Shown here one piece after another: positions 40,168 to 64,000 of a stretch of DNA of 64,000 bases. The notes under the pieces are model-generated. The model was not told the origin of the DNA. It searched no databases and saw nothing but the letters and a program-made list of their open reading frames with translations. Each line of letters begins with the position of its first letter. The stretch's first letter is position 1. The position numbers and the translations under genes were made by a program. The stretch is from Butyrivibrio fibrisolvens (GTDB lineage Bacteria > Bacillota > Clostridia > Lachnospirales > Lachnospiraceae), in the NCBI RefSeq assembly GCF_023206215.1, contig NZ_CP065800.1:2108001-2172000 (forward strand), read 5' to 3'.

Positions 40168-42254
40168 ATGAAGAAAGACATTGTTATTACAGATTGCTTT
40201 ATGTATAGCGTTTTTAAGCTGAGTGTAAATGAAAGAAAGCAAGCTACAAATACGATAAAACAGATGAATCAGGATATTTCTACGCCATCGCTTAAAGTCC
40301 ATGCAATAGATAGAGAAAAGTGTGATTCTAAATTTAAAAGTGCAAGGGTTAGTAGCGATATTCGATTGATTTTTTATTTGGAAGGGAATAGCTGTTTCTT
40401 ACTCTACATAGATCATCATGATGCTGCTTATGACTGGTGCGAAGGGAAGTATTTTAAAAAGACGGATTTTGGTGCGTCGTATATTTTTGATGTAATTAAG
40501 GAAGAAAAATTATTATCCGAATTTGGCGAGAATGAGCAGAATTTGGATGTTAGTGAGGGCGAAGGCGTTTTAGAAAAAATGGGATCACATTAAAAGAATT
40601 GATTAAATTGGGTATAGCAAAAATACATGCAGGTAATTTATTAACAATAGATGATGATGAGCGCTTTGTTGAATATATTGAGATTTTTCCTGAAGAACTG
40701 CAAGAAGCATTGATGGATTTGTATGCTGGGGAAAAGAAATTTGATGTTGTTTATAATGAGTTGAAAGATAATGAAATTCAAGATGAAAATAAAATTGATA
40801 TAAGTCAAAGTTTGCTTCAAAAAGATACTAAAAGAAGATTCTATGTTACTCAAAGCATGGAAGAATTAGAGTATTTGATGGAAAATGAATCATTTGATAA
40901 ATGGACTATTTTTCTGCATCCATCTCAGGAAAAGTATGCCAGTATTCATGTTAATGGTCCTATGCTTGTTGAGGGCGGACCTGGAACAGGAAAAACCGTA
41001 TTGGGAATTCATAGAGCTGCTTTTCTGTCGGAGAATGTCTATAAAGCGCAAGATAACAAGAAGATATTATTCTGTACTTATAGTAAGAAGCTTGCGAGAT
41101 ATATTTCAGATAACATAGATAAATTATTTACGCAGAGAGGAATAACAAATAATGTTGATGTTGTAGGTGTAGACGCTTTTATAGCACAACAGCTTGGACA
41201 CAATACTCTTGCTGTTTCGATGGAGAAGTTCAATGAGCTAGCTAAGTTTATATATAGCACACAAAGATGGAAGTATTCATTTGATTTTTACATGTATGAG
41301 TACTTTCAGATTATTGAACGTTATGGAATTGTTTCGCTGGAACAGTATCTTAAAGCAGATAGAACAGGAATGGGTGTTGGATTAAACGAAAACAATAGAA
41401 AGGCTGTATGGGAATTTTTTAGGAGACTTTATGAAGAACAGAGGAAAAGGGGAATAGCTACATTTGTAAATAGAGCAGAGAAGTTGTTGTACCTAATAGA
41501 TAAGAATGAAATATCCCCAACTTATGATGCAGTTATTATTGATGAAGCACAGGATTTGGAACCGTGCAAATTAAGAGCTGTTATTTCCTGTGTAAAATCA
41601 GGCTCTGATTCTGTAATGATATTGGCTGACGATAACCAAAGAATATTTAATTTGCGTTCTTGGAAAAGTGATGTTGGAATTAACATTGTTGGTAGAACGC
41701 ACTATTTATATTTGAACTATCGTACCACCAAAGAAATAAGTGATTACGCTACTGCAGTTTTATTTAAAGGCGAAGAGAAAAATGAGTATATGAAGAGTTA
41801 CAAGTCAATAGTAAAAGGAAATGACCCTGTTGTTCAGGGATATAAGGATGAGGCCAGGGAAAGAGATGCTGTTGTTGCAACTATTGCAGGGCTTATACAA
41901 CGAGGAACAGAACCTAACCAAATCTGTGTGGTATTTCCGAATACTAATGAGTTAAGTAAATTTGAGAGTGTTTTAGATAAGCATAATGTTGATCATATGT
42001 TTTTGAAAGATGATGTTATACCTCAAGATTCTAATGGGGTTTGTCTATGCAATGTTTATGGAATAAAAGGTTTGGAATTCCGTGTTGTAATTATATTTGC
42101 AGCAGAAAAATATGGCAACTGGATAACTAATAAGTATGAGAATATTGGTGATCCAGAAGCAAAGAAGAAATATTTAAAACAGGCTGACTGTGCTAGATTT
42201 GTTGCTGCGACAAGAGCTAGAGATGAATTATACGTCACATATACAGAGGGATAA
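40168..42254 (+). CDS. RelE/ParE-like domain fused to a UvrD-type helicase, frameshifted
   Basis: The first part (40168-40593, 141 residues) has a RelE-like toxin fold pattern: FKLSVNERKQATNTIKQMN and SDIRLIFYLEGNSCFLLYIDHHDAAYDW. The second part (to 42254) is a superfamily 1 helicase: Walker A GGPGTGKT, DEAQD, ADDNQRIFN, LNYRTT, GIKGLEFRVVI and FVAATRARDELYVTYT. The helicase frame reads ITLKELIKLGIAKIHAG just before its apparent start, so one missing G in the GGG near 40580 would fuse both into about 695 residues, an architecture known for UvrD-like proteins with an N-terminal RelE-like domain. First gene of the long operon. Confidence 0.8.
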
Positions 42255-42256
42255 AA

Positions 42257-45200
42257 ATGGTATTTCCAAAATTTGATTTTCATGGTAATTCAGTAGGAGA
42301 AGATGATATTTGGGATAAAATGAGGCAGTATTTACCTCAGAATTACGTATCTTTTCATAATTATTTATTGGATACTCAAGAAGTAGATTGGATTTTATTA
42401 GTCCCTGATTTTGGGGTGCTTATTATTGAAATTAAAGCATTTTATCCAAATAATATTGTTATTGCAATAGATAATAATAATATTCTGCTTAGTGATGGTA
42501 CTATGGAGTATTCACCGTATAAGCAGGCACAGCGCTATTGGAAGAAATTGCTGGAGATGACAGCTGATAATCCGGATTTGAAAAAAGTTTATATCGCTAG
42601 AGCTGCTTGTTTCCCATTCCTTACAAGGAAAGATATAGCAGATAAAAAACTTACACGTATTTGCGCTGATAAACTAATTATTTCAAAGGAGGACTTGGTA
42701 AATTTTAGCTCTCTTTCATTGAGAATAGAGACTATTTTTAGGACAACATATGAAGTGAGTCTTCCTGGTGCACTGGATTATGGCTTTAATGAAGAGATAA
42801 AAAAAGAATATGCAAACTTTATTTCTGATGGTTGTATGGATGAAAATGACGATGAAATAATACAAGAAGATGAGGTAAAGGAAGCTGATTATTCTATTAT
42901 ATGTGTAAAAACTAAAAAAATAGATGAAGGAAAAATAGATAAATTATTCAATTCATGGAAACATGGCACGAAAATTTTCTTTTTTACAAAAGTTCGAGAA
43001 GATGCTGAATTGCTACGAAATAAAATTTGTGAATATATTAAGAGCATAGGTGAACTAGATAGGCTATGTTCTAAGGGAGACATATTTAATTGTTACATTG
43101 ATAGTTGTACAGAAATTATTGATGACTTTGAAATAACAAATGGAGATAATCTCGAGTATTATTGGGAAAAGTTAGAGCACCTGGGAAGTATTGTTTCTTT
43201 CAATGCAGAACAATACAGGGTAGAGCATCTTAATACTGAAGATATCATCGTGAAAGCTGGCGCAGGAACGGGAAAGACGTACCTTTTAGTTTCTCGTATA
43301 GCATATTTATGCTGGAGAAAAAAATACGATGAAAATGATATTTTAAATAAATTAGTGCTTATTACTTTTACGAATGATGCAACTGATGAGATGAAGTCAA
43401 GACTTGAAGCTTATTTCAATAAGCTTTTTGTCTTAACATATAATCCTTTATACTTCAGCTATGTTGAGAGTATAGAGAATATGAGGATAAGTACAATTGA
43501 TTCTTTGAGTTTAAGCATTATTAAATCGTATGCATACTATTTAGGATTGGGAACGGAGCTTTCGATTACTAATGCAACTCTTATAAAAAGAGATGCTATC
43601 AGAAATTTGATTAATTCAGTTATCGAAAATGGAGATAGCACGAGTTTATTGACTAGTTATCAATTGCAGAAGGTAATAGAAGAAATAATAAATAAGTTTG
43701 AAAATAGAAATGTTGACCTTAAGACTTGTAAAGAAACATTTTTTAATGATGAAATGCTTGGCAATAATGCCATTTCGAAATATCTTAAAGCTATACCAGA
43801 AGCTGTAGAAAGTATTGAAGAGGAATGCGAAAAGAGAAATAGAATTACTACAGGACATATAATAGTCTATCTGCATAGATTAGCAGCAATGATGAGTGAG
43901 GGTAAAATTGTTCCTAAGAAATCGTTGAATATTGAACATGTATTTATAGATGAATTCCAAGATACAGATGATACCCAGATTCAGCTAGTTGCATTGTTTA
44001 AGAGATTTTTTAAATTCAATCTGTTTGTGGTTGGAGATGTAAAACAGAGTATATATAGATTTAGAGGAGCAGATGATGATAAGGCATTTACTACGCTAGA
44101 GGAGAAACTGGGATATTCAATAAAAGAGTATCCTTTAAAAAAGAACTATCGAACCAATAGTCAATTGTTAAACTATATGGATGGTGTTTTTGAAAAAATA
44201 TCTGCTAAAAAGTTATTAAAATACTCTAGAGATGATAAGTTACAAGGTGTTATTAATCCAGATGTTCCGGCTAGTGTTATTAGTATGAATATTGTTACCG
44301 AAGAAGAGCGAGAGCATAGAATAGTTGAGGTAATAAAAAGATTTGAGAAAGAATGTTGTCAAAACGATGACAGAAGGAATAATAAAAAGAAGTTAGGAAT
44401 ATTGGTAAGACGAAGATCTGAGATACTTAAACTAAGAGAGATTTGTTCAAATAATGGAATTAAAAACATTGATATCGATATCGGAGGTAAGTTATATAAG
44501 ACTGAAGCAGCAATAGATTTATATAAATTGATATTAGCTCTTAGAGACTGCGGAGATGTTGGTGCTGTATATAATCTTTATTCAACAAATTATGTAAATG
44601 AACAATTAGACAAAACAAAATTGATTAGAAAAAAAGATGGGTTGCTGGAATGCTTCTATAGTGAATTGCCTAGTACGTTAATAAAGTGGAATGATTATTT
44701 GAATAGACTGAAAATTGAGCCTATTTTAAAAATTCTTAAGGAAATTACCGAAGATATTAAACCTTGGGATATCTATGCCTCAAAGATGAACAATGATACA
44801 TCATTGGAAAAAGATGCTCTAGCAGTAAGCTATAAATGTAACTTAGATAAAATGTTCGAAAAAATCGCAATAGATTTTGAAGGAGATTATCTTACTTTGA
44901 ATTCATTGATTGATTATCTATCAATAATGATAAAAACAGAGCAGGAAGAAGAAGAACGATCAATTGAAGAAGAATCTGCTATTCAGTGTAGAACTGTCCA
45001 TAGAGCCAAAGGAAAGGAATATGATTGGGTATTTATGCCTTTTAGCGATATACAAATTACTGGTGGTGGAGCGGGAAAACAATCGGATTTTATAATTGAT
45101 GAATTTGGCTTTGGATATCGTATTGTTCTAAATGTGGATGAGGAATCTCAGAAGATAGATTCTTTATCTAACCCATTCTATGAGAATAGAAAAAAATAGA

Positions 45201-45333
45201 AAGAAATGATCAAAGTTGCGAAGAAGCAAGAATTCTTTATGTCTGTTTAACAAGAGCTAAAGAAAGTATCATTTATTTAAAAAAGATATCAGATAAAAAA
45301 ACAAAAGGCTTGAAGTGGCAAGATTTATTGTGA
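42257..45333 (+). CDS. NERD-nuclease-domain UvrD/RecB-like helicase, frameshifted near the end
   Basis: About 1,025 residues. Residues 1-180 form a NERD-like domain with Asp44 and Glu58-Ile-Lys60 (VDWILLVPDFGVLIIEIK), a PD-(D/E)XK core. Then helicase motifs: Walker A GAGTGKT 335-341, TFTNDATDEM, DEFQD near 565, GDVKQSIYRFRGAD, LKKNYRTN and VHRAKGKEYDWVF. The frame stops at 45199, but motif VI (EARILYVCLTRAKES) follows in another frame to TGA 45331. One more A in the seven-A run around 45190-45196 restores it. ATG 42257 is 2 bases after the previous stop. It probably unwinds and cuts DNA ends like AddA. Confidence 0.82.
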
Positions 45334-45354
45334 TTGGAGGATAAGAGTTTCTTC

Positions 45355-48073
45355 ATGGAAAGAGAAATGATGTTTAAGTGGAATAATTCACCAAGAATAA
45401 TTACATATAATGATCCTAAACAGATTTTTATGTCTGTAGATCGTGAATTAATTAAAAGGCATCCACATGTATGTGCATCTGATACCTTAATGCAGGGGCT
45501 AGAAGAAAAATATGGAAGAGACTCATTTTCTATTATTGGTGCAGTTAGTCAGTTTACTAATTGTATTTTTTCAGGAGGTTTAGATAGAGCCACTGATAAC
45601 TTGCAGCTCTATTTAAATGTGTCTGATGCGATAGATTCACTTAATTCGAATGAAAGTAATTCGGGATTATCAGATTATTGCAAAAAAGCGTTCAATCATA
45701 ATAAAGCTTCAATTATAGAAGCAGTAAAACTTTTAGTATATGCGAATGCAGATGAGAATTTTGAAACGTATTGCCATAATGAAGAACAGAAAGCATTTTT
45801 TAATAATGTATATCTTAAAGTGAAAAATGATTATAGAAAAACCTTTGATAACATTATTGAAAATGTATCTAAAGAAACAATTAGAGCTTCTATGGAAGCA
45901 GTACTAATAAACGAAATAAATTATCAGTTAAATAGAGATTCTAAATTATCAATTAGAACAGTGGATGATGCAAAAGTTTTTTTAGCCGAAGTATGTAATA
46001 AAGAGGATACTAACGCGTGGAATAAGAAAAAAGCAGCTGATTATCTAAAAGTAATATATGAATTAGATAATTATGATTATGGTACATTTGTATTTCATGG
46101 TATCTTAAGGTTTACACCAGAAATAATAAAAACGCTGGAAGTGCTTGATAGAATAGGAATCCGTATAATCTTTCTTTTTAATTATGTCGATAATTTGGAT
46201 AGTATATATGGCGTATGGAAAAAGGCATATGAGTGGATAGATTCGGACTTTGAGAATATAAGTTCGCTTAATTTTAGTCGAGGTACAGACGTCGGAAGAA
46301 GAATAGCTGATGTTTGTAGCGGAAATAGAATTAAAGATAATTCTACTGCACAGTTTAGAGAATATAGATACTTGACAGAATTTACAGACAGAATAAGAGA
46401 TGAGTATACGTGCGCTCAAAAAAGAAATAAAAATAATCCATTGAGTAGTATGGAAGTTCAGTTCTATGCAGTTAAGCCTGACAATGTAAATGATATTTTG
46501 AGAAATTATTTCCCAGATCAATTTTCGGATAAACCTTTTATGGCATATCCTATTGGACGGTTTGTAAAAGGTATATATTCCATGTGGAATTTCGATGAAT
46601 CAAGAGTTGAGATTGATTTCAAGGAATTAAAAGAATGCTCAGTAGTTGGAATAGGGCATGACAATTTAAAAATGTCAGAAGTAATTGACATGCTTCAGTT
46701 GTATTTTAAGGGATTAAAAGAAGTTGATGAAGTATTATCTCGTGGGCAGGAGCTAATTTCAAGGAGAAAAGAAATTAGCGAGAAAATGAACAACAGTGGA
46801 AATATTTATCTTTTACACATTATCAGAATCAGATATTCAAAGTTTTTTAATATTTATAAGTACAATAAATAAAATATCTAAAAAATTATTCCTAAGCTTG
46901 TCAAAAAAGGATGTGGACTATAAAAAGCACTTTAATGATACTATGCATTTTATAAGTAATGCTACAGAGGATAATTCGTTAATTAGCGAAAAAGAGCGAG
47001 AACTTATTGACATGTTGCTTGAATGTTTGAGCTTTTCTGAAGATTCTGATGTACATGGATCAGCGAATGACTTAAAAAATGCATTACAGTTTTATCTTGC
47101 AGCCAAAAGAAAAATGAGTGGCAGTGATTGGATTGTTCGAGGTTTTGATCAATTGGATGGAGCTCCTTTCCTTTGCGAAAGATCACGTAGAATGTATGAA
47201 TTTTCATTAGTGTCTATGAAAAACATGACTTCTAATGGAAAAGATATGATTCCATGGCCGCTTGATGAAGAAATGCTAAATAGTTGTCAAGGTACGAGTA
47301 TTTATTTTGAGCAGTTAAAAAATATAGTGGATACCAAAAAAGATTATTTACTGTTTTATCTGTTTTATGGAGCTTTCTTTTCAAAGGCTGGTATTACTTT
47401 TAGTTATGTTCAAGATGAGGATGGGATAAAGCAAAGACCTTTTTTTGTAGTGGATATGATAAAGCCGGTTAAACCTTTGAAAAGAGCTGTTTCTATTGAT
47501 CCTAATCCATTAGAAAATATTGAGTACAAAGTAAAAACTGATGGTCGGATAATTGATGTAAGCTTTGATAAGCGAGACGAGAAACTTTATTCCATATGTG
47601 CATATAAGTTTTTTCTTTCAAAAGTTATAGGAAAAGATGTTTATTATGTTGATGAATATCATATTAAGTACTTTATTGAAAATGAAGCATGTGCATGGAT
47701 TAGTGAGAAATGCGGATATAGTAAAAAGAATATCGATAAAGAATTCATAAAATTAAAGGAATACCTTGTATACTGGTTTCCATTCCTTGATGAAGCAGAT
47801 ATTTTTGATATTAGGAGATTTGTTGAAGAAAAATTTTATACATCAAGACCTCAGAATGATTACTTACAAAGAAAAAGAGATTTTTTGATAGCAAAGTGGG
47901 AAGATAAAGGTGTAAATTATATGAATTTCAATTCTGCAACCCAGGAAGATATAAAAGCTTATATAAATGGTAATTATTTGGAGAGCAAGAATGTACCGCA
48001 TAAGAAGATATGTCAGGAATGTAATTTTAATTCTGTTTGTATGAAATATTATTATGACAAGGTGACAGATTAA
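45355..48073 (+). CDS. AddB-like protein with a 4Fe-4S cysteine set, frameshifted
   Basis: About 906 residues when joined. Part one (to 46872) has a RecB/AddB-like inactive helicase feel (YGTFVFHGILRFTPEIIKTL). It continues in another frame from about 46796 (EIFIFYTLSESDIQSF); removing one G at 46798-46799 joins them. The C-terminal part has CAYKFFLSKVIG (Cys at 47597) and CxxCxxxxxC (48011-48040), the AddB/Cas4 iron-sulfur spacing. No GxxDRID or DYK-type nuclease motif is visible between them, so the nuclease is probably dead. Together with the NERD-UvrD gene just upstream it resembles an AddAB-like end-processing pair. Confidence 0.72.
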
Positions 48074-48642
48074 TGAAGTTGTTAACGGTTGCAATAGAAA
48101 AAAAGGAAAAAAAAGAATTTATATGGGGAATTGACTCAAAGACAAAACAGTTTTTTTACGTTGAAATGTGTGATGTCATAAAAGAAAAAATGAAGTCAAT
48201 TGGAGATTATTTGATTTTTAAAGAAAGAGTGATTAAAGGTACTCATGAACTACAGATAATAAAGCTTTTAGAGATTGAATCGAACGCTAGAGTGAATTTG
48301 ATTAATACGTTAAATTGTATGGCAACATATCCAGCATGTTTGAGAGATCATTTTGTTAAAAATAACGTAATTAAAATTCGTGAGATTCATGCTTTGGAAA
48401 GATTAGGTGAAGCAGTTGCCGCTAAAATTGAAATCTGCGGAATAGAAGGAATATATAATGCAATAATCAATGATTCAAAGTGGGTGAATTTTTGGAATGA
48501 TAGTTCAAGTAGCGAAATAAATGAAAAAAAAATAGTAGATGCTATTAACTCGATGAAAAATATTTACATGATTCTTGATTTTGATCAGACTTTTTTTGGT
48601 AATGAACTAATTTTTAGTGGAATGGTAGTTGAGTATGGCTAA
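48073..48642 (+). CDS. Unknown protein of the helicase/dnd island
   Basis: 189 residues, no membrane segment, no recognised family. The N terminus alternates strands (LTVAIEKKEKKEFIWGIDSK), followed by helices. ATG overlaps the previous TAA (TAATG), and the end overlaps the next gene by 8 bases, so it is translationally coupled within the operon. Confidence 0.7.
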   Translation: MKLLTVAIEKKEKKEFIWGIDSKTKQFFYVEMCDVIKEKMKSIGDYLIFKERVIKGTHELQIIKLLEIESNARVNLINTLNCMATYPACLRDHFVKNNVIKIREIHALERLGEAVAAKIEICGIEGIYNAIINDSKWVNFWNDSSSSEINEKKIVDAINSMKNIYMILDFDQTFFGNELIFSGMVVEYG

Positions 48643-49417
48643 GACATATTTACATATCGATAAAGAAGGCTATAGTATTTCTGAAGATTCAAAAAACTCA
48701 TCAATGAGTTATAAAGATTATTTATATAAAAAGATACTAGTTGTGCTGGTAGATGGATTAGTTACGGATGGCTTTCTTAATGTATATGATGTTGATTCAT
48801 TTTGGGATAGCTTATCAGAATATAGGTTTGAGCTTTTTGAAAATGGCATCGATAACGGAATAAATAATGAGGAACTAGAAAGTAAACTAAATAATGTATC
48901 AGATATTATTGAGTCTAAAGAAAACAATGTCAATGAAGTGTTGTTAGGCGGCATTGAAGAAAGAATTATCAAAGTATTAGATACAGAAATATTACCAGTT
49001 ATTATGGCAAGAGTTAATAATAAAGACATTCAGTTGAATGTAGACGATGGCTTTGGGATTATTAAGCGGTTATTTTTAGATTTATTGAAAGAGTATGGAT
49101 ATAAAGTAGATATTACTCGAATAGGAAGTAATAAAGACTTAAGTAGGATACAAGTGGAATACGAAGATGAGATTATAATTGATTTAAATGATGGTCAAGG
49201 TATGCACATGGGTAAGTGCAATATAGCAAGTGATATAGAACCGTATATTGTATTTAAAGTAATAACAAATGATGTAGAGTATGTAAATGTGTTTTTTCCA
49301 TTCTTTGGTTATAGTGATGCCATTGAAGTTAGGATAGAGCATAAAGACGGGAATTATTTATTGATTGTTAAGCATGACAAAACAGGGTTATGCGTAACAA
49401 AAAAAATAGGGGGTTAA
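48635..49417 (+). CDS. Unknown protein of the helicase/dnd island
   Basis: 260 residues, acidic, no recognised domain. Helices around 20-130 contain an Asn/Glu-rich stretch; the C-terminal half is strand-rich (IQVEYEDEIIIDLNDGQGMH, VFFPFFGYSDAIEVRIEH). ATG 48635 lies inside the end of the previous gene; the next gene starts 10 bases after its stop. A role as adaptor for the following SNF2 helicase is only a guess. Confidence 0.7.
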   Translation: MAKTYLHIDKEGYSISEDSKNSSMSYKDYLYKKILVVLVDGLVTDGFLNVYDVDSFWDSLSEYRFELFENGIDNGINNEELESKLNNVSDIIESKENNVNEVLLGGIEERIIKVLDTEILPVIMARVNNKDIQLNVDDGFGIIKRLFLDLLKEYGYKVDITRIGSNKDLSRIQVEYEDEIIIDLNDGQGMHMGKCNIASDIEPYIVFKVITNDVEYVNVFFPFFGYSDAIEVRIEHKDGNYLLIVKHDKTGLCVTKKIGG

Positions 49418-49426
49418 TAGATAACG

Positions 49427-52400: not shown

Positions 52401-52507
52401 ATACTTATGATGAAAAAAAACTCGAGTTATACAAGGCGCTCAGGAAAGCTATGAATGCAGCTAATGGCGTTTTGGATAGCATCTTATTTGTGTGCTTAGA
52501 GAAATAA
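49427..52507 (+). CDS. SNF2/RapA-type helicase (DpdE-like)
   Basis: 1,026 residues. An N-terminal 160-residue domain precedes the SNF2 core: DEVGLGKS at 190-197, VVPSQLVQQWRLE, DEAH at 284-287, LSATP at 312-316, and after an insert the second lobe with GGEGRNFQFAEYIIHYDMPW and QRIGRLDRIGR from 640. Size and arrangement match DpdE of the 7-deazaguanine DNA island and RapA-like enzymes. The immediate neighbours (RecQ type, small protein, large ATPase) repeat the DpdE-F-G-H order, which supports the link. It likely translocates on double-stranded DNA. Confidence 0.8.
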   Translation: MFSLGMYVKFRAENSNGEEKTILGQIEKELSDVAIVLCYEKHNSAMMMKRTRINLKELTRARIKNGSICLVEGKSVRILEKSKKMTKTGLHGYYCEFFGTNKVRLVSEAKLIADYESAAVTTVDLLKQDKITNYTLWRSRENISDYYINSSLVMEGFDIAINSKIEMYEHQLETVRGIVANKPYRAMLSDEVGLGKSIEALVVLKYAIRNGFVNRAIIVVPSQLVQQWRLEATSKFSLDAQVFIYHSYVVQKKIPQVLIIGFDDYKKYAADYFEYAKWDFAIVDEAHKVIRDNKLYASIMKISKATENYLMLSATPILQRTEEYYNLLRLLFPHHYTSIGINKFNNVMKIREKIIDDVNYLAENLRYYKEYALYEDYLTRLNGINEVVNDDYLKELLERMSEQEDDSYNIAYIAVNYLSATYEIDSKFIRHRRQSVLDPTTKRILYEAIPIDSGAFDFGLNERDLKDQVIAELDESISNEIVNIDKAIQICNALFSSIGALFGVITRNKLEKCFPNTLQAISRSADKENFRMANLRLNTIIPVLKKLIETGDKIIIFTDYYETVSLIYNRLVKEFGDNKVAKFSSELSPAGMQIAVNKFKHDKACQILVCDKSGGEGRNFQFAEYIIHYDMPWSPADLEQRIGRLDRIGRKHNHNVKNIVFYEPDTVEEDLFNLYNNSLNIFEESLCGIEIVFEDMNSAIKDHLKKGVKIGFENLSETLCDLKKIAEDQISYENLSIMLQHSDDSYKNIEDELMKHFDESSTLKYQDAIASWIEAQEIGDCKLSSNPYRGAKIHIYESSKHNDCKVEGTFFVKDALEYEDVDFLTCQHPIVRELSEEVIDSNDGRFSAVKVNDSDVEWKGLILSWNLDLDIPDYFSGEWDKDLLPLTNEFITNNRIKIVYPMNDSKYMMYEDIINSVDNGLLNKTCEDISRSEIEDILDYSDLEEDVKIAIKETKSKYSEIEKSTFAQALLEKKIEDLEFKCQLNNQMKVSNTYDEKKLELYKALRKAMNAANGVLDSILFVCLEK

Positions 52508-52508
52508 T

Positions 52509-54986: not shown

Positions 54987-55765
54987 TGCCTGATTCATTA
55001 AGACAGGAATATATGCCAATGATGGTATATTATCTATGTAAAGCAGTTGATTCAACTGTATGTAATGAAGATGATTTAAAAGGAAAGATGACAGCTTTTC
55101 AAGATGATAAAAATAGTTCAGATGAATTTAATAAAGTATTTAAGTTTTCTGAAAATGTTTTTATCAAAAAAGATGAAAAAACGGGAGAAATATCAAGTGT
55201 TTTTAGCAGTGAGGAATTAAAGGATTATAAGTCATTTTCGAAATCTTTGTTAACAAAATTAGAATTAAAACGCTCTAACAAGTTTAGTCAAATGCTTGAG
55301 TGGCTCATTGGTTCTGAAAATCGTAAATTAGATAAGTATACAAGGGCTGAAGATTTTGTTCCAGCTATGGGTATAGATGGTATAGACCATAATACGGTTC
55401 ATGGTTTTTTGTTTTGGTGTGAGATGTTAGGGATAATATCCTTTAATGGTTATAGGTCAGGAAGAGTATCGTATGCTCTGGATAGTATTTTATATGATTA
55501 TCTAGAAGACCATGAAGAACTCAAGCAGGAAGGATATATTCCGGCAAAGTTGTTTTTCGATAAAATGGCAAGTGAATTATTCTTTATTAAAATTTGTATT
55601 CATGAAAACAATGTTTCATATCCATTATCACAGGCTATTAGAATACTTGAACAAGCCAAGATGATAAAAATAGAAACTATGAAAGATATAGGAGATGTTT
55701 GGCATTTAAGTAAGTCAAACATATTACTTAAAGGAAATAATTTTACAAATATAAAGGTGTGCTGA
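54980..55765 (+). CDS. DpdG-like protein (by position and size)
   Basis: 261 residues, soluble, no motif of known enzymes. The region DGIDHNTVHGFLFWCEMLGI followed by SGRVSYALDSILYDYL looks like a winged-helix module. It overlaps the RecQ gene by 7 bases and ends one base before the large ATPase, the same slot and length as DpdG. Assignment rests mainly on context. Confidence 0.55.
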   Translation: MLMPDSLRQEYMPMMVYYLCKAVDSTVCNEDDLKGKMTAFQDDKNSSDEFNKVFKFSENVFIKKDEKTGEISSVFSSEELKDYKSFSKSLLTKLELKRSNKFSQMLEWLIGSENRKLDKYTRAEDFVPAMGIDGIDHNTVHGFLFWCEMLGIISFNGYRSGRVSYALDSILYDYLEDHEELKQEGYIPAKLFFDKMASELFFIKICIHENNVSYPLSQAIRILEQAKMIKIETMKDIGDVWHLSKSNILLKGNNFTNIKVC

Positions 55766-55766
55766 A

Positions 55767-58700
55767 ATGACAAAAATATCAGAAGAGAGAATCAATAAAG
55801 TAATTAATACAACAGCAACAGAGTGTAGTGAAGCGGATTTTATGCTTACGCATATGCCGTTTAATTCGTTAGTTGATTATATTAAACCTATTGAAGGTAG
55901 TACACAGCACCTTTTTATTGAAGATAATCTTTATGACAATGCAACTGTATTTACCGAAGATGATCTTCTTGATGATATGATAGCAAATGCTAATAATCAT
56001 CAGTTTATTATGATACAAGGTAAAAATGGGTGTGGAAAATCACATTTAGTAAGATGGCTATATTATCAATTTAGAAAGAATAATGATGAAAATATAGAAA
56101 AAAGCATCTTTATTCCGCGTTCTAAAAACACCCTTAAGGCAACAATTAGAACTATTCTTGATGCTAATATTCTACCAGAAGATAGAACTAAATATTATCT
56201 CGACAAAATTAGTGCTGGTACTACAGAAATGTCAGATGTGGAGTTTAGGGATACGGTCTATTCAACTCTTAAGGTGCGAGTTAAGAATTATGAGGGAGAT
56301 AATATTGATAAGATACTAAAAGAAAAACTGTATCATTATTTGTCTGATCCTGTTGTAGAACAGACTATCTTTATGTGCGAAGATGGGCCAATAGATAAGT
56401 TGTGTAACAAAATAACTGGAAAAATAGTTCTACGTGATGGAGAAGATATATTTGAGGATGATGCTATTATGTTCTCTCCTTCCGATATAGCTAAGCATTT
56501 GCAGTCTTCAAATCATAAGGCAGACAGGGAAACACTTGAGTTAGCTAAACTTTTAGCTACAAATAAAAAAGAGTGTTTGAAGGTAACACAATATTTAAAT
56601 TCACTTGTTGAGATAGTTATAAAAAGAACGTTGAATTTTTCTGGAAGCGATTTACGAGATGTTTTTGACGAAATCAGAACTGAGTTAAAAAAACGCGGTC
56701 AAAAATTGTCTCTTTTTATTGAAGATATTAATATTTTTACAGGAATTGATAGTGAAATCATAGAAGTATTAATCAATAAGCATACCGATGTTGGCAATGA
56801 TAATCTATGTCGTATTCTTTCGGTAATTGGATCAACAGATGCCTTTTTTGATCGTTTTCATACAAGTTTACAAGAGAGATTGACTAGGAATGTTGTTATT
56901 CTAGAGAAATCATTGCTGAAAAAAGATGAGTGGATTATTGAATTCGCAGCTAAGTATATTAATGCTATTAATTTATCTTCAGATGATAGCGATAAGTGGT
57001 ATACAAAAAAGGGTGGAGATATACCAGTTTGGGAATGTGCATATGATTTTGCAGATGTGATGGTTAATGGAAAGAAAATGTCTGTATTTCCATTTAATAG
57101 GAATGCTCTATTGAATATGTACAGACTACTTCCAGATAGTTCAAAGTCACCTAGATGTTTTTTGAAAGATGTAATTAAGCATGTTGAATTAAAGTGGCTA
57201 AGTTTTGGACCTAAGATTATTAGCGAAGAGCGTAATTTTCATAATGCAAGTATAGTTACTTTGGGAAGAATGGAAGAAAAGGATGAAGTACTAAATGAAA
57301 ATTTTGATCCTATAAGCGAACAAAAGGAAAGAGAAATTTTAATTAAAATTTGGGGGAATGGAACTTTTTCTCGTGGCGCAAATGGCGAGATAGGCGATGT
57401 TCCGCCGACACTTTTTGAATTTTTTGGATTACATCTTGGAGCTTCAGCTACATCAGTTTTTGTTTCGGCAGATGATAATAAAGAAAACGATAACATTAAT
57501 GCCATAGGTAAGGCAGAAGAGAATGCATCTATTGAGCATAATCAAAAAGAAATAGAAGTCCAAAAGAAAAAATCTAGACAAGAAGAAAAATTAGAAGACG
57601 ATATAAGCCAAATTAAGCGCTGGTATGATGATCCTGCTGTAAAATTGAAAATCATAAGAGAACCTAAAGAGTATATTTGTAAATATATTCTTGAAAACAT
57701 TAATTGGGAGCATGAGGGACTGAGTTACAACTTAGTATCAAAAGTTTTAAACGCAAGAAATATCTATATTGAAGGGCAGAATGTTTCAGGTAATGGCATA
57801 ATTAAGATTGATAGAAATCTTGAATCGTACCAGTTATTAAGGGCATTGTATAACTATAATTTTTATAAAGGATGGGATTATGAAAATGGTGACGAACAGT
57901 TTGTTAGCGCCAAAGCATGGTTAATTAACCACCGAAACGAATTGGTAAGCATAATCAAAAAAGAAATTGCTGGAGAACAGGATATCGATTACATTGTAGT
58001 GAAATCAGCAATGGTATATTTACTTGTAAAAGGGAAAATAAGCTCATTTGATAAAAAGAATGTAATAAAGGCTCTGTTTTCTTTAAATAGAAAGAGCAAA
58101 AGCTTTGCTTTAAAAAGTGATAAATGGTCTTCTATTGATTCTAGGATGGATGATAATAGTGATGTAATAATGGATTTACTCAATATACGTTTTAGAACTT
58201 ATATAGGTAGTAGTAATGAAAGCAGTTACTTTTATATTGATGAGACTAGATTGTCCTCTGTTGTTGAAAAGGTGTTAGAAGAGGGGATTATTTCGGATTT
58301 TGTAATAAAGGGAGTATTACCTAATGATGCTTTGATAGTAGAGGCTCTAAAACTATTAAGTGTCTTTGCGGAATCCAAAGATGACATAATGAATGAAGAG
58401 CTGGAGGTTGCCAAAAATTCAAAGAGAAAACTAGAGCAATGGCTTGGAAATGACATCGATGAAAAAATAGTAAATAAAACCAATATGGAAATGTTACGTT
58501 ACCTGAAGTTCATAAGAAATGATTGTAATTTGCCTTATGAAGATGTTTCACTAAAGGTAATTTATGATGACTCATTTTCTATGGAGCTATTGAATTTAGT
58601 TCGTTCTCTTAACAAGATATCAAGAACGAAGAGTTGCGATGATGTATTTTTGTTATTAGCAAAATTAAATACTGAGACCTTGAAAAAATATGTGTGTGCT

Positions 58701-58835
58701 TTTGAGGCTTTTGAAAAATTGATATCAGAAAAAAATAGTATATTTACTTCAAATATTGATAGATCATTAGATCAAAAAGCAACCAGAATCAAAGAAGGGA
58801 TAAAAGCTAGCCTAGATAGTGTTAGTAATATGTGA
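55767..58835 (+). CDS. Large ATPase (DpdH-like)
   Basis: 1,022 residues. Walker A GKNGCGKS lies at 85-92 in IMIQGKNGCGKSHLVRWLYY, and a Walker B-like LSLFIEDINIFTGID lies near 315, so it is a STAND/AAA-type NTPase. The C-terminal half is helical with a Lys/Glu linker around residue 600. Size and the preceding DpdE/F/G-like genes match DpdH. Such ATPases may act as sensor or motor in restriction. Homology is tentative outside the P-loop. Confidence 0.7.
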   Translation: MTKISEERINKVINTTATECSEADFMLTHMPFNSLVDYIKPIEGSTQHLFIEDNLYDNATVFTEDDLLDDMIANANNHQFIMIQGKNGCGKSHLVRWLYYQFRKNNDENIEKSIFIPRSKNTLKATIRTILDANILPEDRTKYYLDKISAGTTEMSDVEFRDTVYSTLKVRVKNYEGDNIDKILKEKLYHYLSDPVVEQTIFMCEDGPIDKLCNKITGKIVLRDGEDIFEDDAIMFSPSDIAKHLQSSNHKADRETLELAKLLATNKKECLKVTQYLNSLVEIVIKRTLNFSGSDLRDVFDEIRTELKKRGQKLSLFIEDINIFTGIDSEIIEVLINKHTDVGNDNLCRILSVIGSTDAFFDRFHTSLQERLTRNVVILEKSLLKKDEWIIEFAAKYINAINLSSDDSDKWYTKKGGDIPVWECAYDFADVMVNGKKMSVFPFNRNALLNMYRLLPDSSKSPRCFLKDVIKHVELKWLSFGPKIISEERNFHNASIVTLGRMEEKDEVLNENFDPISEQKEREILIKIWGNGTFSRGANGEIGDVPPTLFEFFGLHLGASATSVFVSADDNKENDNINAIGKAEENASIEHNQKEIEVQKKKSRQEEKLEDDISQIKRWYDDPAVKLKIIREPKEYICKYILENINWEHEGLSYNLVSKVLNARNIYIEGQNVSGNGIIKIDRNLESYQLLRALYNYNFYKGWDYENGDEQFVSAKAWLINHRNELVSIIKKEIAGEQDIDYIVVKSAMVYLLVKGKISSFDKKNVIKALFSLNRKSKSFALKSDKWSSIDSRMDDNSDVIMDLLNIRFRTYIGSSNESSYFYIDETRLSSVVEKVLEEGIISDFVIKGVLPNDALIVEALKLLSVFAESKDDIMNEELEVAKNSKRKLEQWLGNDIDEKIVNKTNMEMLRYLKFIRNDCNLPYEDVSLKVIYDDSFSMELLNLVRSLNKISRTKSCDDVFLLLAKLNTETLKKYVCAFEAFEKLISEKNSIFTSNIDRSLDQKATRIKEGIKASLDSVSNM

Positions 58836-58843
58836 GGTAAGTT

Positions 58844-59503
58844 ATGTTAATAGAGGATATTTCTTATTCTATAAAACAGGGAAACAAGTATTTGAGTTCA
58901 AAGGTTGCTAAAAATAATGTTAGTGACCTTGAAAAGATTCAGATGGACTTGTCTCCTATTATCGTAGATATTATAAAATTGTACGCCCAAAGAAAAGTGT
59001 ATGAGAAGCTCGAAGATTTAGAAGAGGAAAATATTAAATCAATTAGGGGATATTTGAATTCTATAAGAAAAGATATAGAGCTAGATAATACAGAAGATAT
59101 TCTAAATAATATGAGCTTTCTGAAAACTAGAATCACAGAAGAAAAAAATTATCTTACAAAAATATGGCGTACTTATAAAAATGACCGTATTAATTCTTAT
59201 GCGAAACTTATCAATGCGTTAGCAAATATTATAGATAATGGCGAAGTTCTTGATGAATTAGGGAAACTTAAAAGTGATATAGATAAAGTAGACGTAGGAA
59301 ACGATAAAGAAATTGATATGATTTCAGACTATATAAAAAAAAGCAAAGAGTTGATAAAGTCACTTTCGCTCGATGAGGATACGGAGAAGTTTGTAATAAG
59401 TATTACGGATGGAGAAGATATTAGCCTGGCAGATGTGAAAAATTCTACTATGAATTGGCTTGAAGATCATAGATTATTGACTAAAATAAAGCTTGTTTTG
59501 TAG
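58844..59503 (+). CDS. Coiled-coil protein of the island, unknown
   Basis: 219 residues, almost entirely charged helices (LEDLEEENIKSIRGYLNSIR, DYIKKSKELIKSLS), likely coiled coil. ATG 58844 follows GAGGTAAG, 8 bases after the ATPase gene. It ends the first transcription unit; the dnd promoter follows. No family recognised. Confidence 0.7.
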   Translation: MLIEDISYSIKQGNKYLSSKVAKNNVSDLEKIQMDLSPIIVDIIKLYAQRKVYEKLEDLEEENIKSIRGYLNSIRKDIELDNTEDILNNMSFLKTRITEEKNYLTKIWRTYKNDRINSYAKLINALANIIDNGEVLDELGKLKSDIDKVDVGNDKEIDMISDYIKKSKELIKSLSLDEDTEKFVISITDGEDISLADVKNSTMNWLEDHRLLTKIKLVL

Positions 59504-59510
59504 ATATCAA

Positions 59511-59558
59511 TTGACACGAACACCCTACTTAAGTATACTACTTAAGTAGGGTGTTTTT
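59511..59558 (+). promoter_or_regulatory. dnd promoter embedded in a long palindromic operator
   Basis: TTGACA (59511-59516), 17-base spacer and TATACT (59534-59539) form a strong sigma-A type promoter. A perfect inverted repeat with 17-base arms (59519-59535 and 59539-59555, 3-base centre) covers the spacer and -10 box, so a bound dimer would block transcription. The downstream T run means it may also act as a terminator for the upstream operon. DndB is a known repressor of dnd genes in other bacteria, so it is a candidate binder. Confidence 0.78.
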
Positions 59559-59570
59559 GCGGAGGAAGAT

Positions 59571-60632
59571 ATGAACTATTGTTATAAATTTCCTGTGGTA
59601 AAAGGCGTTCAGGCTGGCAAAGATTATTATATTGCTATGGTGCCGTTAAAAATGATATCAGCATTGTTTCCGAATGATGAAGAATATGTTCTCCCAGAGC
59701 ATAGAGCTCAGAGGAAATTAAATGAATCCAGAATTCCAGAAATAAAAAGGTATATGTTGAATAATAGAGATTCTTATGTCTTTTCAGCGTTAGCAGCAAG
59801 TATAGATGGCGAATATCGATTTGTTTCAACAGACCAAGAAGATTTGGGCATTTTAGAAGTATCTATGGATGCTCATTTCTTAATTAATGATGGGCAGCAT
59901 AGAAAAGCTGCAATATTAGCAGCACTTGAAGAAGCTCCAGAACTATCAGATGAAACAATTTCGGTTGTTTTTTACGAAGATATGGGACTGGAAAGAAGTC
60001 AACAAATGTTTACAGATCTAAATAAGCATGCAGTTAAGACTTCCAATTCAATAGCTGAATTATATGATTCAAGGGATGAGCTTGCAGTACGTACGAGAGC
60101 TGTAGTTAAGGCCGTCTCATTTTTTGATGAATATATTGATAAAGAAAAAGATATTTTAGGTAAGTTTTCATCATCGCTATTTACTTTAAACAATCTGTAT
60201 ACAGCTAATAAGCGAATACTTAGAAGATATACTTGTGATGATAAATTTGAGAACTTTTGTATTGCTTATTGGAATATTGTTTCAGAACATATGGTTCCTT
60301 GGAAAGATATGCATGAGAGAGTTATTAGTAAAACAGAGTTAAGAGAAAAGTATATTGCAGCACAAGCCGTGGTTTTACAAGCTTTAGGCCGTGTTGGCGG
60401 ATGCTTGTTTGATAATTGCAAAGAAAGTGATCTTGAAAAGTTACTAATAAGATTAGAAACAATTGATTGGAAGAGAAGTCATAAAGAATGGCAGCAAAGA
60501 GTAATAAAACCCAATGGTAGAATGATAAATAATGAGAAAGCAATAGTTTTAGCTGCAAATCTAATTAAGAAAAAAATCGGTATACCTCTTTCTAACGAAG
60601 AAAAAGAGGCAGAAAAAGAAATAAGTAGGTGA
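59571..60632 (+). CDS. dndB: DNA sulfur modification protein DndB
   Basis: 353 residues. The DGQHR motif (LINDGQHRKAAILAAL, 107-111) and ParB-like fold define the DndB/DGQHR family; also RFVSTDQEDLGILEVS and FTDLNKHAVKTSNS-type text. DndB regulates dnd transcription and modification frequency but is not needed for sulfur insertion. ATG 59571 follows GCGGAGGAAG within the promoter region's transcript. dndC starts 4 bases after its stop. Confidence 0.88.
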   Translation: MNYCYKFPVVKGVQAGKDYYIAMVPLKMISALFPNDEEYVLPEHRAQRKLNESRIPEIKRYMLNNRDSYVFSALAASIDGEYRFVSTDQEDLGILEVSMDAHFLINDGQHRKAAILAALEEAPELSDETISVVFYEDMGLERSQQMFTDLNKHAVKTSNSIAELYDSRDELAVRTRAVVKAVSFFDEYIDKEKDILGKFSSSLFTLNNLYTANKRILRRYTCDDKFENFCIAYWNIVSEHMVPWKDMHERVISKTELREKYIAAQAVVLQALGRVGGCLFDNCKESDLEKLLIRLETIDWKRSHKEWQQRVIKPNGRMINNEKAIVLAANLIKKKIGIPLSNEEKEAEKEISR

Positions 60633-60636
60633 CAAA

Positions 60637-62178
60637 ATGGACGTGAATACAAGTAATGAAAAAAGTGAAGTGACTATTACGAATGAATCCATAAGATGTT
60701 TATTAACAACAGTAAGGAATTTATATCTATGTGATGATATTCCTTGGGTTATTGGATATTCCGGAGGAAAGGATAGTACAGCAACAGTTCAATTGGTTTG
60801 GATGGCTATACAAGGACTTCCGAAATCGCTTCGCAAAAAGACAGTTCATGTTATAAATACAGATACTTTAGTTGAATCACCTGTTGTATCAAAATGGGTG
60901 AAGAGATCACTAGAATTTATGGATGAGGCAGCTGAAGAACAAGATATGCCATTTGTAACACATCAGTTAACTCCTGCAGCTGACAATACATTCTGGGTTA
61001 ATTTTATAGGTAGAGGTTATCCGTTTCCAAGAAAAAAACTTCGTTGGTGTACAGATCGATTGAAAATACAGCCTGTTAATAATTTTGTTAAAGATAAAAT
61101 AGCAGAGCACGGCGAAATAATTATGGTAATTGGCACACGTAAAGCTGAAAGTGCGAGACGTGCTAAAACCATGGCTTATTATGAAAAAAAGCGTGTAAGA
61201 GAACTTCTTAGTCCTAATCCTTCACTTGCGAACGAACTTGTTTTCTCTCCACTTGAAGATTGGAATGATAATGATGTTTGGGTATTCTTAATGCAACATA
61301 AGAATCCTTGGGGATATTCAAACAAGGAGTTGCTTACTTTATATAGAGGAGCAACTGCGGATGGAGAATGTCCACTTATGATAGGCAAAGGACTTCCGAG
61401 CTGTGGAAGAAGTAGATTTGGTTGCTGGGTTTGTACCATGGTTGAAAAGGACAAATCAATGGAAGCTATGATAGCAAACGATTCTGAGAAGGAATGGATG
61501 TCTTCATTACTAGAATTTAGAAATAAATTTGGTGATGAAGAACATGATAGAGAGCGAAGAAGCTTTAGAAAGATGGCAGGTTATCTGCAGGGAAGTTATA
61601 AGCAGTTATATCATGGCCCTTATAAGAAGGAAGTCAGAGAAGAGTGGTTGCGTGATTTATTAGAGGTTCAAAAAGATATAAATGAAAATGGTCCTGCTGA
61701 ATTTGCTGACCTTCAATTAATTACGCTTCCAGAGCTTAGAAATATCCGTAGAATATGGGTAAATGAAAAGCATGAGTTTGATGATTCTCTCCCTAGAATA
61801 TACAAAGAGGTGACAGGAAAGGAATTTGATGATCCTGAATGGATTAGTTCTAATTCTTTCCAGTCAGAGGAATGGGATATTTTAAAATCAGTTGTCGAAG
61901 AGTTATATCCTGATGAAGAATTAGCATTTGAAATGGCTTATAGTCTGGTTGATATTGAGAATAAGTCTAGTGGATTAAATCAGAGAAAAGGTATAGCAGA
62001 TGCATTAGAAAATACAATAAAGAGAACATATTACAAAAACGAGGAAGATGCAAGACAGTTTTATCTAGGACAAACAGAACGAAAACGAGATCTTGGGGGC
62101 AAGTACAATGCGCTTGCACTTGATGATTCATATGATGAACCATACGAAACAGATGATGACGAGGAAGATAAGGAATGA
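60637..62178 (+). CDS. dndC: DNA phosphorothioation sulfurtransferase DndC
   Basis: 513 residues. PAPS-reductase-like PP-loop SGGKDS at 42-47 binds and hydrolyses ATP. Cys245, Cys256, Cys263 and Cys266 (the last three in SCGRSRFGCWVCT) are the likely 4Fe-4S ligands. DndC activates the DNA backbone oxygen for exchange with sulfur provided by a cysteine desulfurase (DndA or IscS, not in this window). Ends in an acidic tail; its stop overlaps dndD by 4 bases. Confidence 0.92.
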   Translation: MDVNTSNEKSEVTITNESIRCLLTTVRNLYLCDDIPWVIGYSGGKDSTATVQLVWMAIQGLPKSLRKKTVHVINTDTLVESPVVSKWVKRSLEFMDEAAEEQDMPFVTHQLTPAADNTFWVNFIGRGYPFPRKKLRWCTDRLKIQPVNNFVKDKIAEHGEIIMVIGTRKAESARRAKTMAYYEKKRVRELLSPNPSLANELVFSPLEDWNDNDVWVFLMQHKNPWGYSNKELLTLYRGATADGECPLMIGKGLPSCGRSRFGCWVCTMVEKDKSMEAMIANDSEKEWMSSLLEFRNKFGDEEHDRERRSFRKMAGYLQGSYKQLYHGPYKKEVREEWLRDLLEVQKDINENGPAEFADLQLITLPELRNIRRIWVNEKHEFDDSLPRIYKEVTGKEFDDPEWISSNSFQSEEWDILKSVVEELYPDEELAFEMAYSLVDIENKSSGLNQRKGIADALENTIKRTYYKNEEDARQFYLGQTERKRDLGGKYNALALDDSYDEPYETDDDEEDKE

Positions 62179-64000
62179 TCATAAAAAAACTTATTTTGCA
62201 TAATTTTGGAGTTTATGCAGATACAAATATAATGGAATTCACTGGAAAGAAACCCGTTGTTCTAATTGGCGGAATGAACGGAAGAGGTAAAACGACAATT
62301 CTAGAAGCGGTTTTATTAAGCCTTTATGGTTCGAATTCATTTGCATATACAGAGAGTAAATACCAATCATATGGTCAATATTTGAAATCATATATTAACA
62401 AGAAAGATGGTACACTGTCATCTTTTGTTGAAATAATTTTTCTATGGATAATTCTGATGAAGAAGTATATCAAGTTCATCGTGAATGGGATTCAAATACC
62501 CAAAGGGTACATGAGAAAATATGGGTTAAGAAGAATGGCGAAGATAGTCCTTTTTTAACAGAAAACTGGCCGATGTTCGTAGAAAGTATATTACCAAGCG
62601 CATTATCTAATTTTTTCTTCTTCGATGGTGAGAAAATTGCAGAACTAGCAGTAGAAGAAACTAGCCACCAAATGAAAGAATCAATAAAGGCTATGCTTGG
62701 AATATCAGTTCTTGATATTCTTGATAATGATATTAGTAAATTAATTACAAGAATCGGCAAGAAAATTTCATCAAATCAAGATCTTACTAAATTGGAAGAG
62801 CTTAGAAATGAAAAAGAAGCTGTCGGTGAAGAATTAAGAATGATTGATGAAGAGATAGATGAAGTTGAGAAAAAGAAAACTAGATTAATTAACGAATTGG
62901 AAAATCTTAATTCTGAATATCAAGTAAAAGGTGGAGATATTGTTGAACAAAAACATGATTTAATGCAGGAGAGAGCCAATAAGCTTAACGCACTTGCCAG
63001 CAATCAGGATGATAGATTTGAGATGGCGGCAGGAGAATTGCCTTTATCACTAGTGATGCCATTATTAGCTGATATTAGAGATGAAGGTGAAAAAGAGCAT
63101 GATAAGAGGATATCTTCTTTTGCGCTAAGTAAAATAAATGAATTGTACGCTGATTTTAAAGGGAAAGATGAAAATACTGACAAGTTTATATCTTTTATGA
63201 AAGAGAAAATCAACGCTAATCAAAGTGAAAACATATATAATCTGTCAGACGCAACATTATATAAAGTCGGTATGCTGTATGATCATGGCCTTAATAATGC
63301 TAAAGAGCAGACAAAAAAACTCATAGATGATGAAAAGGAATATCAAAAGAATATAGATGTAATTGACGGATACTTGTCTGTTGATATCAATGAGAAAGAA
63401 TTAAGTGAGCTATATAAGACTATAAAATCAACAGAAAAGGAAATTGCTAATTGCGAAGTTGAAATAGAAGATTACCATAAGAAGAGATCAAGCATAAATA
63501 GTAATTATATTTTGACATCTGCTGAATTTAGTAGGATGGCAGAAAGTGTATTATCTTCGCTTGAAGCAGTGGATTCTGACGAAAGAGTCGTTAAGTATGC
63601 TCATATGGCGAAAGATATAATAGATCAATATAGAATTAGATTACAAGCAAGAAAAACTAGTATTCTTGCTTCAACAATGACTTCATGCTACAAGAAATTA
63701 GCAAATAAGAAGAACTTGGTATCTAATATTGAGATGGATCCTGAAACTTTGGATCTTACATATTTAAATAAAGATGGAGAGATAGTAACTAAAGAGCGCT
63801 TATCTGCAGGAGAAAAGCAATTGATGGTAATTTCATTGTTATGGTCTTTAGCAATTTGCTCTCAGAAAAAGCTTCCGGTTATTATTGATACACCATTATC
63901 AAGACTAGATTCAGCGCATAGAGAATCATTGATTACAACTTATTTCCCTAATGCAAGTGAGCAGACAATAATACTGTCTACAGATTCTGAAATAGATGAG
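62175..64000 (+). CDS. dndD: DNA sulfur modification ATPase DndD, frameshifted and cut by the window end
   Basis: An SMC/Rad50-like ATPase: Walker A GGMNGRGKT at 32-40, a long coiled coil (about 210-480), the signature KERLSAGEKQLMVISLLW near 63799, and Walker B VIIDTPLSRLD near 63880, still open at the right edge. The first frame stops at 62556-62558, while the true sequence resumes as SMDNSDEEVYQVHREWD from about 62441. One additional T in the run at 62437-62441 restores it. DndD works with DndC and DndE to nick or open DNA for sulfur insertion. dndE probably lies beyond the window. Confidence 0.85.

Follow-up and report, generated by a model that had tools for sequence, protein, structure and literature searches.

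The stretch of DNA analyzed here, a window of 64,000 nucleotides from Butyrivibrio fibrisolvens (G000:C1:2108001-2172000, in a genome of 4.45 Mb and two contigs), carries a row of genes in which DNA phosphorothioation (dnd) genes adjoin genes for DpdE-F-G-H-I, an effector type known from 7-deazaguanine (Dpd) islands. The best explanation of this locus, and in our judgment a probable one, is a restriction-modification system based on phosphorothioate (PT), for which DndA-E would supply the mark and DpdE-I, helped by an AddAB-like pair, would be the effector. The gene content, the operon-like packing, the reappearance of the pairing under different gene orders, the lack of a detected DpdA, the intact residues of the NERD site and the modeled fold of DpdH all favor this explanation. 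Recurrence in a few distantly related bacteria suggests that attack modules are re-usable with different DNA tags.

A preliminary description of the window had noted about 24 kb of same-strand genes ending in dndB-dndC-dndD. This was borne out, and the row runs on through dndE, dndA and an HNH gene. Its 17 genes, all on the + strand, extend from 40156 to 66654, ~2.7 kb past the window end, and the gaps within the row range from -14 to +67 bases when broken genes are counted whole. The order is a small open reading frame (ORF), a UvrD-like gene, NERD-UvrD, an AddB-like gene, two ORFs, DpdE-F-G-H-I, dndB-C-D-E-A and the HNH gene, as follows (window positions; aa, amino acids):

40156..40593, + strand: small protein of 145 aa, possibly RelE/HigB-like judging from weak matches (PF05015 E 0.047, below cut-off)
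40599..42254, + strand: UvrD-like helicase of 551 aa, a recurrent add-on (PF00580/PF13361)
42257..45333 (ORF end 45199), + strand: NERD nuclease domain with UvrD/RecB/AddA-like helicase, frameshifted near 45196 (PF08378, PF00580)
45334..48073 (ORFs 45334-46872 and 46796-48073), + strand: AddB-like partner with a frameshift near 46806 (both sides aligned by intact homologs of 886, 911 and 942 aa)
48073..48642, + strand: 189-aa protein without family match in library scans
48629..49417, + strand: 262-aa protein without convincing family in library scans
49427..52507, + strand: DpdE-like SNF2 helicase (NF041062, 315 bits, E 7.9e-94)
52509..54986, + strand: DpdF-like RecQ helicase (NF041063, 469 bits, E 3.9e-140)
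54980..55765, + strand: DpdG-like protein (NF041064, E 4.5e-4; 23% identity to the Paenibacillus positional counterpart)
55767..58835, + strand: DpdH-like ATPase, N-terminal half ORC/Cdc6/BrxC-like AAA+ (NF041065, 292 bits; predicted fold of the Moorella homolog)
58844..59503, + strand: DpdI-like protein of 219 aa (match to the Moorella positional counterpart, E 1.7e-7)
59571..60632, + strand: dndB (TIGR03233, 419 bits, cut-off 328)
60637..62178, + strand: dndC sulfurtransferase (TIGR03183, 611 bits, cut-off 290)
62175..64000, on to 64108, + strand: dndD ATPase, frameshifted near 62440 (TIGR03185 in two pieces)
64095-66654, + strand, past the window end: dndE, dndA and HNH gene (family scans)

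The neighbors of dnd had been described as DpdE-F-G-H in order and size, and profile searches, named beforehand as the check, confirmed the homology for 49427-58835. All four proteins scored below the equivalog cut-offs of the Dpd models: DpdE with 315 bits against 500, DpdF with 469 against 550, DpdH with 292 against 450 (covering residues 6-1008 of 1022) and DpdG with 19.7 against 80, the last over a C-terminal stretch only. Judged by sequence, E, F and H are clear Dpd homologs and G is a weak one, and none is an equivalog by NCBI's rule. The 219-aa protein is DpdI-like; besides the Moorella protein it matched a Nostoc counterpart (pairwise E 5e-4), and it did not match the Paenibacillus one. 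The family lists of the operon ORFs that were scanned (in several tables the best 25 per protein) contain no DpdJ, DpdK or DpdD. In agreement with the earlier statement that a DpdA-type transglycosylase is lacking, an Enterobacter DpdA query had no match (E <= 1e-8) in the window's genome, and DpdA had none in the three other genomes with linked loci, those of Moorella, a Bacillota metagenome-assembled genome (MAG) and a Coriobacteriaceae MAG; of 80 genomes carrying DpdH, 52 did give a match to this query, in one case over a 62-residue fragment.

DpdH models as an ORC/Cdc6/BrxC-like AAA+ ATPase and not as a helicase, judging from the N-terminal ATPase region of the Moorella homolog's model and its closest folds among the matches listed. 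A PDB sequence search with the DpdH profile gave 11 weak matches; a designed coiled coil headed them at E 9e-4, and most of the others involved ATP-binding stretches. The previous count of five DNA motors is fair for ATP-driven proteins (UvrD, NERD-UvrD, DpdE, DpdF and DpdH), but DpdH is modeled as a non-helicase AAA+ protein and NERD-UvrD is frameshifted. Two ORFs that had been called unknown proved to be pieces of the AddB-like gene, and the 219-aa protein proved DpdI-like; the 189-aa and 262-aa proteins lack a match in the loci of other genomes compared.

As for the modification half, DndB (419 bits, cut-off 328) and DndC (611 bits, cut-off 290) both exceeded their cut-offs, DndD was matched in two pieces (77 + 343 bits; TIGR03185 cut-off 246) and DndE by PF08870 (E 1.3e-41), and a DndA-like cysteine desulfurase lies just past the window (Aminotran_5, E 9.8e-67). 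Hence dndC, dndD, dndE and a cysteine desulfurase occur together, as in a Dnd modification cluster, with dndD frameshifted in this copy. Behind dndA are HNH genes coding for 331 and 392 aa. The known PT-dependent proteins DndF, DndG and DndH (DptF/G/H), reported missing in the preliminary description, were indeed absent from the family lists of the operon ORFs scanned; the DptH model TIGR03237 matched 0/28 genomes but also 0/14 controls, and is hence silent on absence. The best listed PbeA match was 39.5 bits, on DpdF, and no second PbeC-type ATPase was found besides DndD: the PbeC models match the dndD pieces, with 376 bits versus 606 bits for the best DndD model. In the profile check, Dpd models matched E-H, and Pbe matches were weak or fell on dndD.

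The pairing was found in three other genomes. In Moorella stamsii DSM 26217, NERD-UvrD, AddB-like, DpdE-F-G-H-I and dndC-D-E-A lie on one strand in the order of the window, all open, with no dndB between DpdI and dndC. In the Bacillota MAG, dndC-D-E-A comes first, followed on the same strand by NERD-UvrD, AddB-like, DpdE-F-G-H and a 223-aa protein in the position of DpdI. In the Coriobacteriaceae MAG, one contig carries NERD-UvrD, AddB-like and DpdE-F-G-H up to its end, and another has an HNH gene and, next to a DpdI-like gene of 217 aa, dndC-D-E-A in convergent orientation; the pairing is very probably present there, by an inferred join of the two contigs. Beside dndC in this MAG (L130:6740-7909) is a homolog of the 392-aa HNH protein of the window's genome (151 bits). 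Conservation of genes 49427-58835 beside dnd elsewhere, the absence of which had been set beforehand as refuting, was thus observed. Since the pairing recurs in three other genomes, and the four together show three gene arrangements, we consider it more than chance. A rapidly built DpdH tree (82 rows, several long branches including that of the window) placed the four hybrids within a supported set of seven rows (Shimodaira-Hasegawa-like approximate likelihood ratio test, 98), together with one Selenomonas and two Paenibacillus sequences, so that the hybrids do not stand alone. The E-H homology, the conservation beside dnd and the lack of a DpdA match support, as far as sequence can, the earlier idea that one effector module has been paired with the genes of a different mark.

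The NERD-UvrD/AddB-like pair was likewise present as claimed and recurs in all three linked relatives, both genes being frameshifted here. The D, E and K of the NERD site are invariant in 4/4 aligned proteins. The helicase half of the window protein scored 125 bits against RecB and 114 bits against AddA, with equivalog cut-offs of 696 and 708. Four cysteines are invariant in the AddB-like relatives of 886, 911 and 942 aa. By eye, no nuclease motif was seen in this three-member alignment; NCBIfam AddB models had no match in four AddB-like relatives, with one recC match at E 0.041, and a PDB sequence search with the AddB-like profile gave none. An AddB-like fold prediction had a mean predicted local distance difference test score of 46.8 and was discarded.

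In the mechanism that we propose, DndA-E would put sulfur into the backbone of host DNA, and the resulting PT would protect it. The Dpd-type effector, made up of the DpdE SNF2 motor, the DpdF RecQ helicase, DpdG, the DpdH AAA+ ATPase and DpdI, would scan DNA and sense PT. Together with the AddAB-like pair it would unwind and degrade DNA without the mark, the NERD domain presumably making the cut.

To survey the distribution of these genes, genome contigs were searched with a profile from a 7-member DpdH alignment, which gave 200 relatives; the 80 most similar to the window were retained, and are thus not a random sample. These 80 loci and 5 loci from viral contigs were scanned with the window proteins, Dpd markers and Que genes, and the whole genomes behind the 80 loci were searched for DndC (76/80) and DpdA (80/80). 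A single-sequence scan of genome contigs had given 10 stretches, none of which was confirmed. Among DpdH genomes from outside the cyanobacteria, dndC and DpdA show a tendency toward mutual exclusion: dndC was over cut-off in 4/7 DpdA-negative versus 1/43 DpdA-positive genomes tested (Fisher p 7e-4). These are small numbers that include a 'Tatlockia' MAG whose contig looks cyanobacterial (4/6 DpdA-negative and p 3.4e-4 when it is removed) and the Chloroflexota genome G780, with dnd and Dpd loci on different contigs and DpdJ + DpdK present; the DpdA-positive G788, G814 and G828, with dndC matches below cut-off only, were scored negative. In the DpdH tree the contig of the 'Tatlockia' MAG (L056) clusters with cyanobacterial ones, and the ORFs flanking it have lengths like those around the cyanobacterial locus L052, so that MAG contamination is probable. 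Pooling all 80 genomes gave 23/28 DpdA-negative versus 5/48 DpdA-positive tested (p 3.5e-10; the DpdA-positive L111-L114 left out of dndC testing, and the DpdA-negative G786 with a dndC fragment only), a table that is confounded by phylogeny because the order-level baseline is high, and is not for quoting alone.

In cyanobacteria, dndC occurred in 9/10 DpdH genomes of a phylum sample versus 66/244 overall (8/9 without the center genome, Fisher p 1.3e-4), with DpdA in 3/10. At order level, however, dndC in 19/21 DpdA-negative DpdH genomes compares with a baseline of 189/243 (P 0.12), so that a genome-wide link between Dnd and DpdE-I in this phylum was weakened as a candidate. Eight cyanobacterial loci (L044, L045, L047, L052, L053, L060, L063 and L065) have complete DpdE-F-G-H-I without DpdJ/K/D and no DpdA match in the genome, and flanking gene families are common to at most 5 of 14 loci compared. 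In ten cyanobacterial dndC stretches of 12-20 kb (L132-L141), DpdE, DpdG and DpdH were without a match, and DpdF had a single weak one (38 bits). The co-occurrence survey that had been suggested thus gave a contrast between dnd and dpdA outside cyanobacteria, and none above baseline within them.

DpdE-I was also found with other partners. In a Selenomonas MAG (L036:3082-21910), DpdE-F-G-H-I is followed by DISARM-type DrmA (699 bits) and DrmB (234 bits) and by a UvrD protein with an extra N-terminal domain. A partial locus in a Selenomonadaceae MAG (L042) has DpdE-F-G-H-I with a Pfam MZB protein in the DrmB position, DrmA and DrmB having been scored in L036 only. Searches of both genomes for DndC and DpdA found neither, and the ORFs of two stretches flanking L036 showed none of the six methyltransferase motifs looked for. 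We propose, tentatively and with somewhat more doubt than belief, that DpdE-F-G-H-I may be an exchangeable restriction core, independent of any one mark, that can be combined with at least three self-recognition chemistries or partners, namely DpdA 7-deazaguanine, Dnd phosphorothioate and DISARM-type DrmA/DrmB, and that would recognize a common consequence of marked or unmarked DNA, such as the way its motors travel along it, and not one chemical group. Viral contigs yielded a single DpdH locus, which lies in a cluster of dpd type that also has matches to DpdJ, DpdK and DpdD, and 17 DpdF-like loci, of which four were scanned, one of them from the same contig as the viral DpdH locus. A further record (L165, MT835580.1, 'Bacteriophage sp.', an unverified phage) holds a dpd island with DpdF, DpdH, DpdA, DpdB and QueC/D/E matches, its gene set being closest to alphaproteobacterial dpd islands.

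Several observations weigh against a PT restriction-modification system with DpdE-I as effector. DpdE-I before DrmA/DrmB, with no dndC or DpdA detected, may not need PT; in cyanobacteria, dndC is not enriched above the order baseline and DpdE-I without dpdA lies away from dnd; an AddA-like helicase and an AddB-like protein homologous to the pair are carried by a Geobacillus plasmid that has neither dnd nor dpd genes annotated; and dnd modification is commonly decoupled from DndFGH restriction, as Rakesh et al. report (PMC10853773). The pairing is also rare, a full-length DpdH match being confined to the window's own genome among 398 sampled phylum genomes (DpdH search) and 391 sampled class genomes (NF041065); other genomes gave two short matches. 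Of the three relatives, two are MAGs, in which a DpdA could be present unseen, and one is split over two contigs with an inferred join; three genes of the window copy are broken. Some of these points would fit an antiphage module that senses phage DNA or replication intermediates alone, with dnd, dpdA and DrmAB as alternative neighbors adding separate layers. Its relatives occur in genomes with DpdA (52/80), beside dnd and before DrmA/DrmB, and the cyanobacterial five-gene units, with their little-shared flanks and no dndC link above baseline, agree with it. We nevertheless regard such autonomy as unlikely, because in three genomes (the window's, Moorella and the Bacillota MAG) the dnd genes and DpdE-I are joined in a single row on one strand, and because of the tendency of dndC and DpdA to exclude each other outside cyanobacteria, small as those numbers are.

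An ordinary defense island, with unrelated systems adjoining by chance and PT used by another nuclease such as the product of the HNH gene after dndA, appears very improbable to us. HNH genes do lie beside dnd in the window's genome and in the Coriobacteriaceae MAG, the use of PT by another nuclease has been reported for other dnd loci (PMC10853773), an IS1634 transposase is found upstream and UvrD-type add-ons recur in other defense loci. Yet the same gene sets appear in four genomes and three arrangements, and the Moorella and Bacillota MAG contigs have no match to either HNH protein of the window's genome. A different question is whether the locus in this strain is a decaying relic in which neither mark nor attack works, which would be compatible with the PT system proposed. 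Relatives align across each of three breaks with a change of frame (NERD-UvrD ~45196, AddB-like ~46806, dndD ~62440), and intact relatives span the break between ORFs 45334-46872 and 46796-48073, the two pieces of one AddB-like gene. Two of the breaks are at short A or T runs, and a fourth indel, of 2 bases in a GA repeat, is present in the first copy of a duplicated downstream methyltransferase. Indels in simple repeats are also typical of assembly errors, and DpdE-I, dndB, dndC, dndE and dndA are all open. The window copy is thus either decaying or mis-assembled, depending on whether the frameshifts are real or assembly errors; a relic is a serious possibility that we rate a little below even. 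Because of the three frameshifts, Moorella stamsii DSM 26217, an open-reading copy with no DpdA found, is better suited for studying the working form.

With respect to known systems, the locus shares with Dpd islands (effector genes dpdD-K) the gene order DpdE-F-G-H-I, similar sizes of these proteins and a DGQHR protein, DndB here and DpdB there; it differs in lacking a DpdA match and listed DpdJ/K/D, in E-H scoring below equivalog level and in carrying sulfur-mark genes instead. With the Dnd systems that use DndFGH/DptFGH or SspFGH it shares dndBCDE and a dndA-like gene as modification half, whereas its neighbors are DpdE-I and the NERD-UvrD/AddB-like pair, with no DndF/G/H among the families listed. 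DndI, added to PT restriction in 2024 (IscS-DndBCDE-DndI, a single ATPase-HNH nickase; PMC11662687), likewise joins dnd modification to a non-FGH effector but is one protein, against a five-protein helicase/ATPase module plus an AddAB-like pair here. PbeABCD/CxC-ATPase is also found beside dnd and is based on an SF2 helicase; here, PbeC models match dndD more weakly than the DndD model does, and PbeA is limited to the weak match on DpdF. The likeness to AddAB/RecBCD lies in the RecB/AddA matches of the helicase half and a partner of similar size with conserved cysteines, the differences in scores below equivalog cut-offs, an N-terminal NERD nuclease and a partner without AddB model match. DpdH shares with ORC/Cdc6 and BREX BrxC ATPases the AAA+ fold modeled for its N-terminal ATPase region.

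Composites of this sort are already in print: in the sections seen, BREX-related systems take up TGT/Dpd parts and type 4 BREX swaps methylation for PT (PMC12839542), and BRIGADE is Dpd joined with ARMADA-like helicases (PMC12458937). Both mix Dpd parts with another defense system, and neither text, in those sections, describes a dndBCDE-DpdE-I pairing. The main text of the survey of dnd neighborhoods by Rakesh et al. (PMC10853773), in the part available, is without Dpd, RecQ, UvrD or AddB. A study of dpd islands required dpdAB (PMC11888242), and the dnd-DpdE-I kind would therefore be missed. We found no description of the pairing in the literature surveyed, and prior mention in the founding 2016 Dpd paper is possible. 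Thus, module mixing as such is known, and what is likely new is a Dpd-type effector paired with dnd genes in a likely PT restriction-modification system. If this is true, the Dpd-type effector joins the published PT restriction sets, given in a 2025 review as dndFGH/sspFGH, sspE and pbeABCD (PMC12707154) and extended by DndI (PMC11662687), and effector modules can pass from one DNA mark to another of unrelated chemistry, here from a swapped base to a sulfur in the backbone or the reverse. It also becomes a testable mechanistic question whether DpdE-H reads the mark itself or the behavior of DNA under its motors. The finding bears as well on the published statement that PT restriction systems are absent in Cyanobacteria (PMC8569181): 9 of the 66 dndC genomes in the phylum sample carry DpdH, 2 of the 9 with DpdA, although dndC and DpdH do not occur together above the order baseline.

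Regarding the remaining genes, 36 residues of the 145-aa protein match the N-terminus of a Selenomonas UvrD protein (pairwise E 0.001), and homologs of the 551-aa UvrD-like helicase are present in L036, L091 and the Geobacillus plasmid. On that plasmid, pJS1-2 of Geobacillus zalihae (L162:15981-22951), an AddA-like helicase, an AddB-like protein and a small UvrD form a unit with no dnd or dpd genes annotated, and the plasmid also encodes a type II restriction-modification set, with a restriction enzyme of the AlwI type and a cytosine methyltransferase. For the 189-aa and 262-aa ORFs, none of the loci compared from other genomes gave a match (E <= 1e-3); these ORFs separate the AddB-like gene from DpdE here, while in the other three hybrids DpdE comes directly after it. 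The IS1634 family transposase upstream of the operon is at window 36634-38448, and downstream two near-identical pairs of a methyltransferase and a glutaredoxin-like gene lie near two HNH genes (window 66690-67620 and 69945-70910). The second contig of the genome, C2, has 2.1 kb at 98.9% in common with a Selenomonas ruminantium plasmid, besides matches, short or distant, to plasmids of Butyrivibrio, Monoglobus, Lachnospira and Roseburia.

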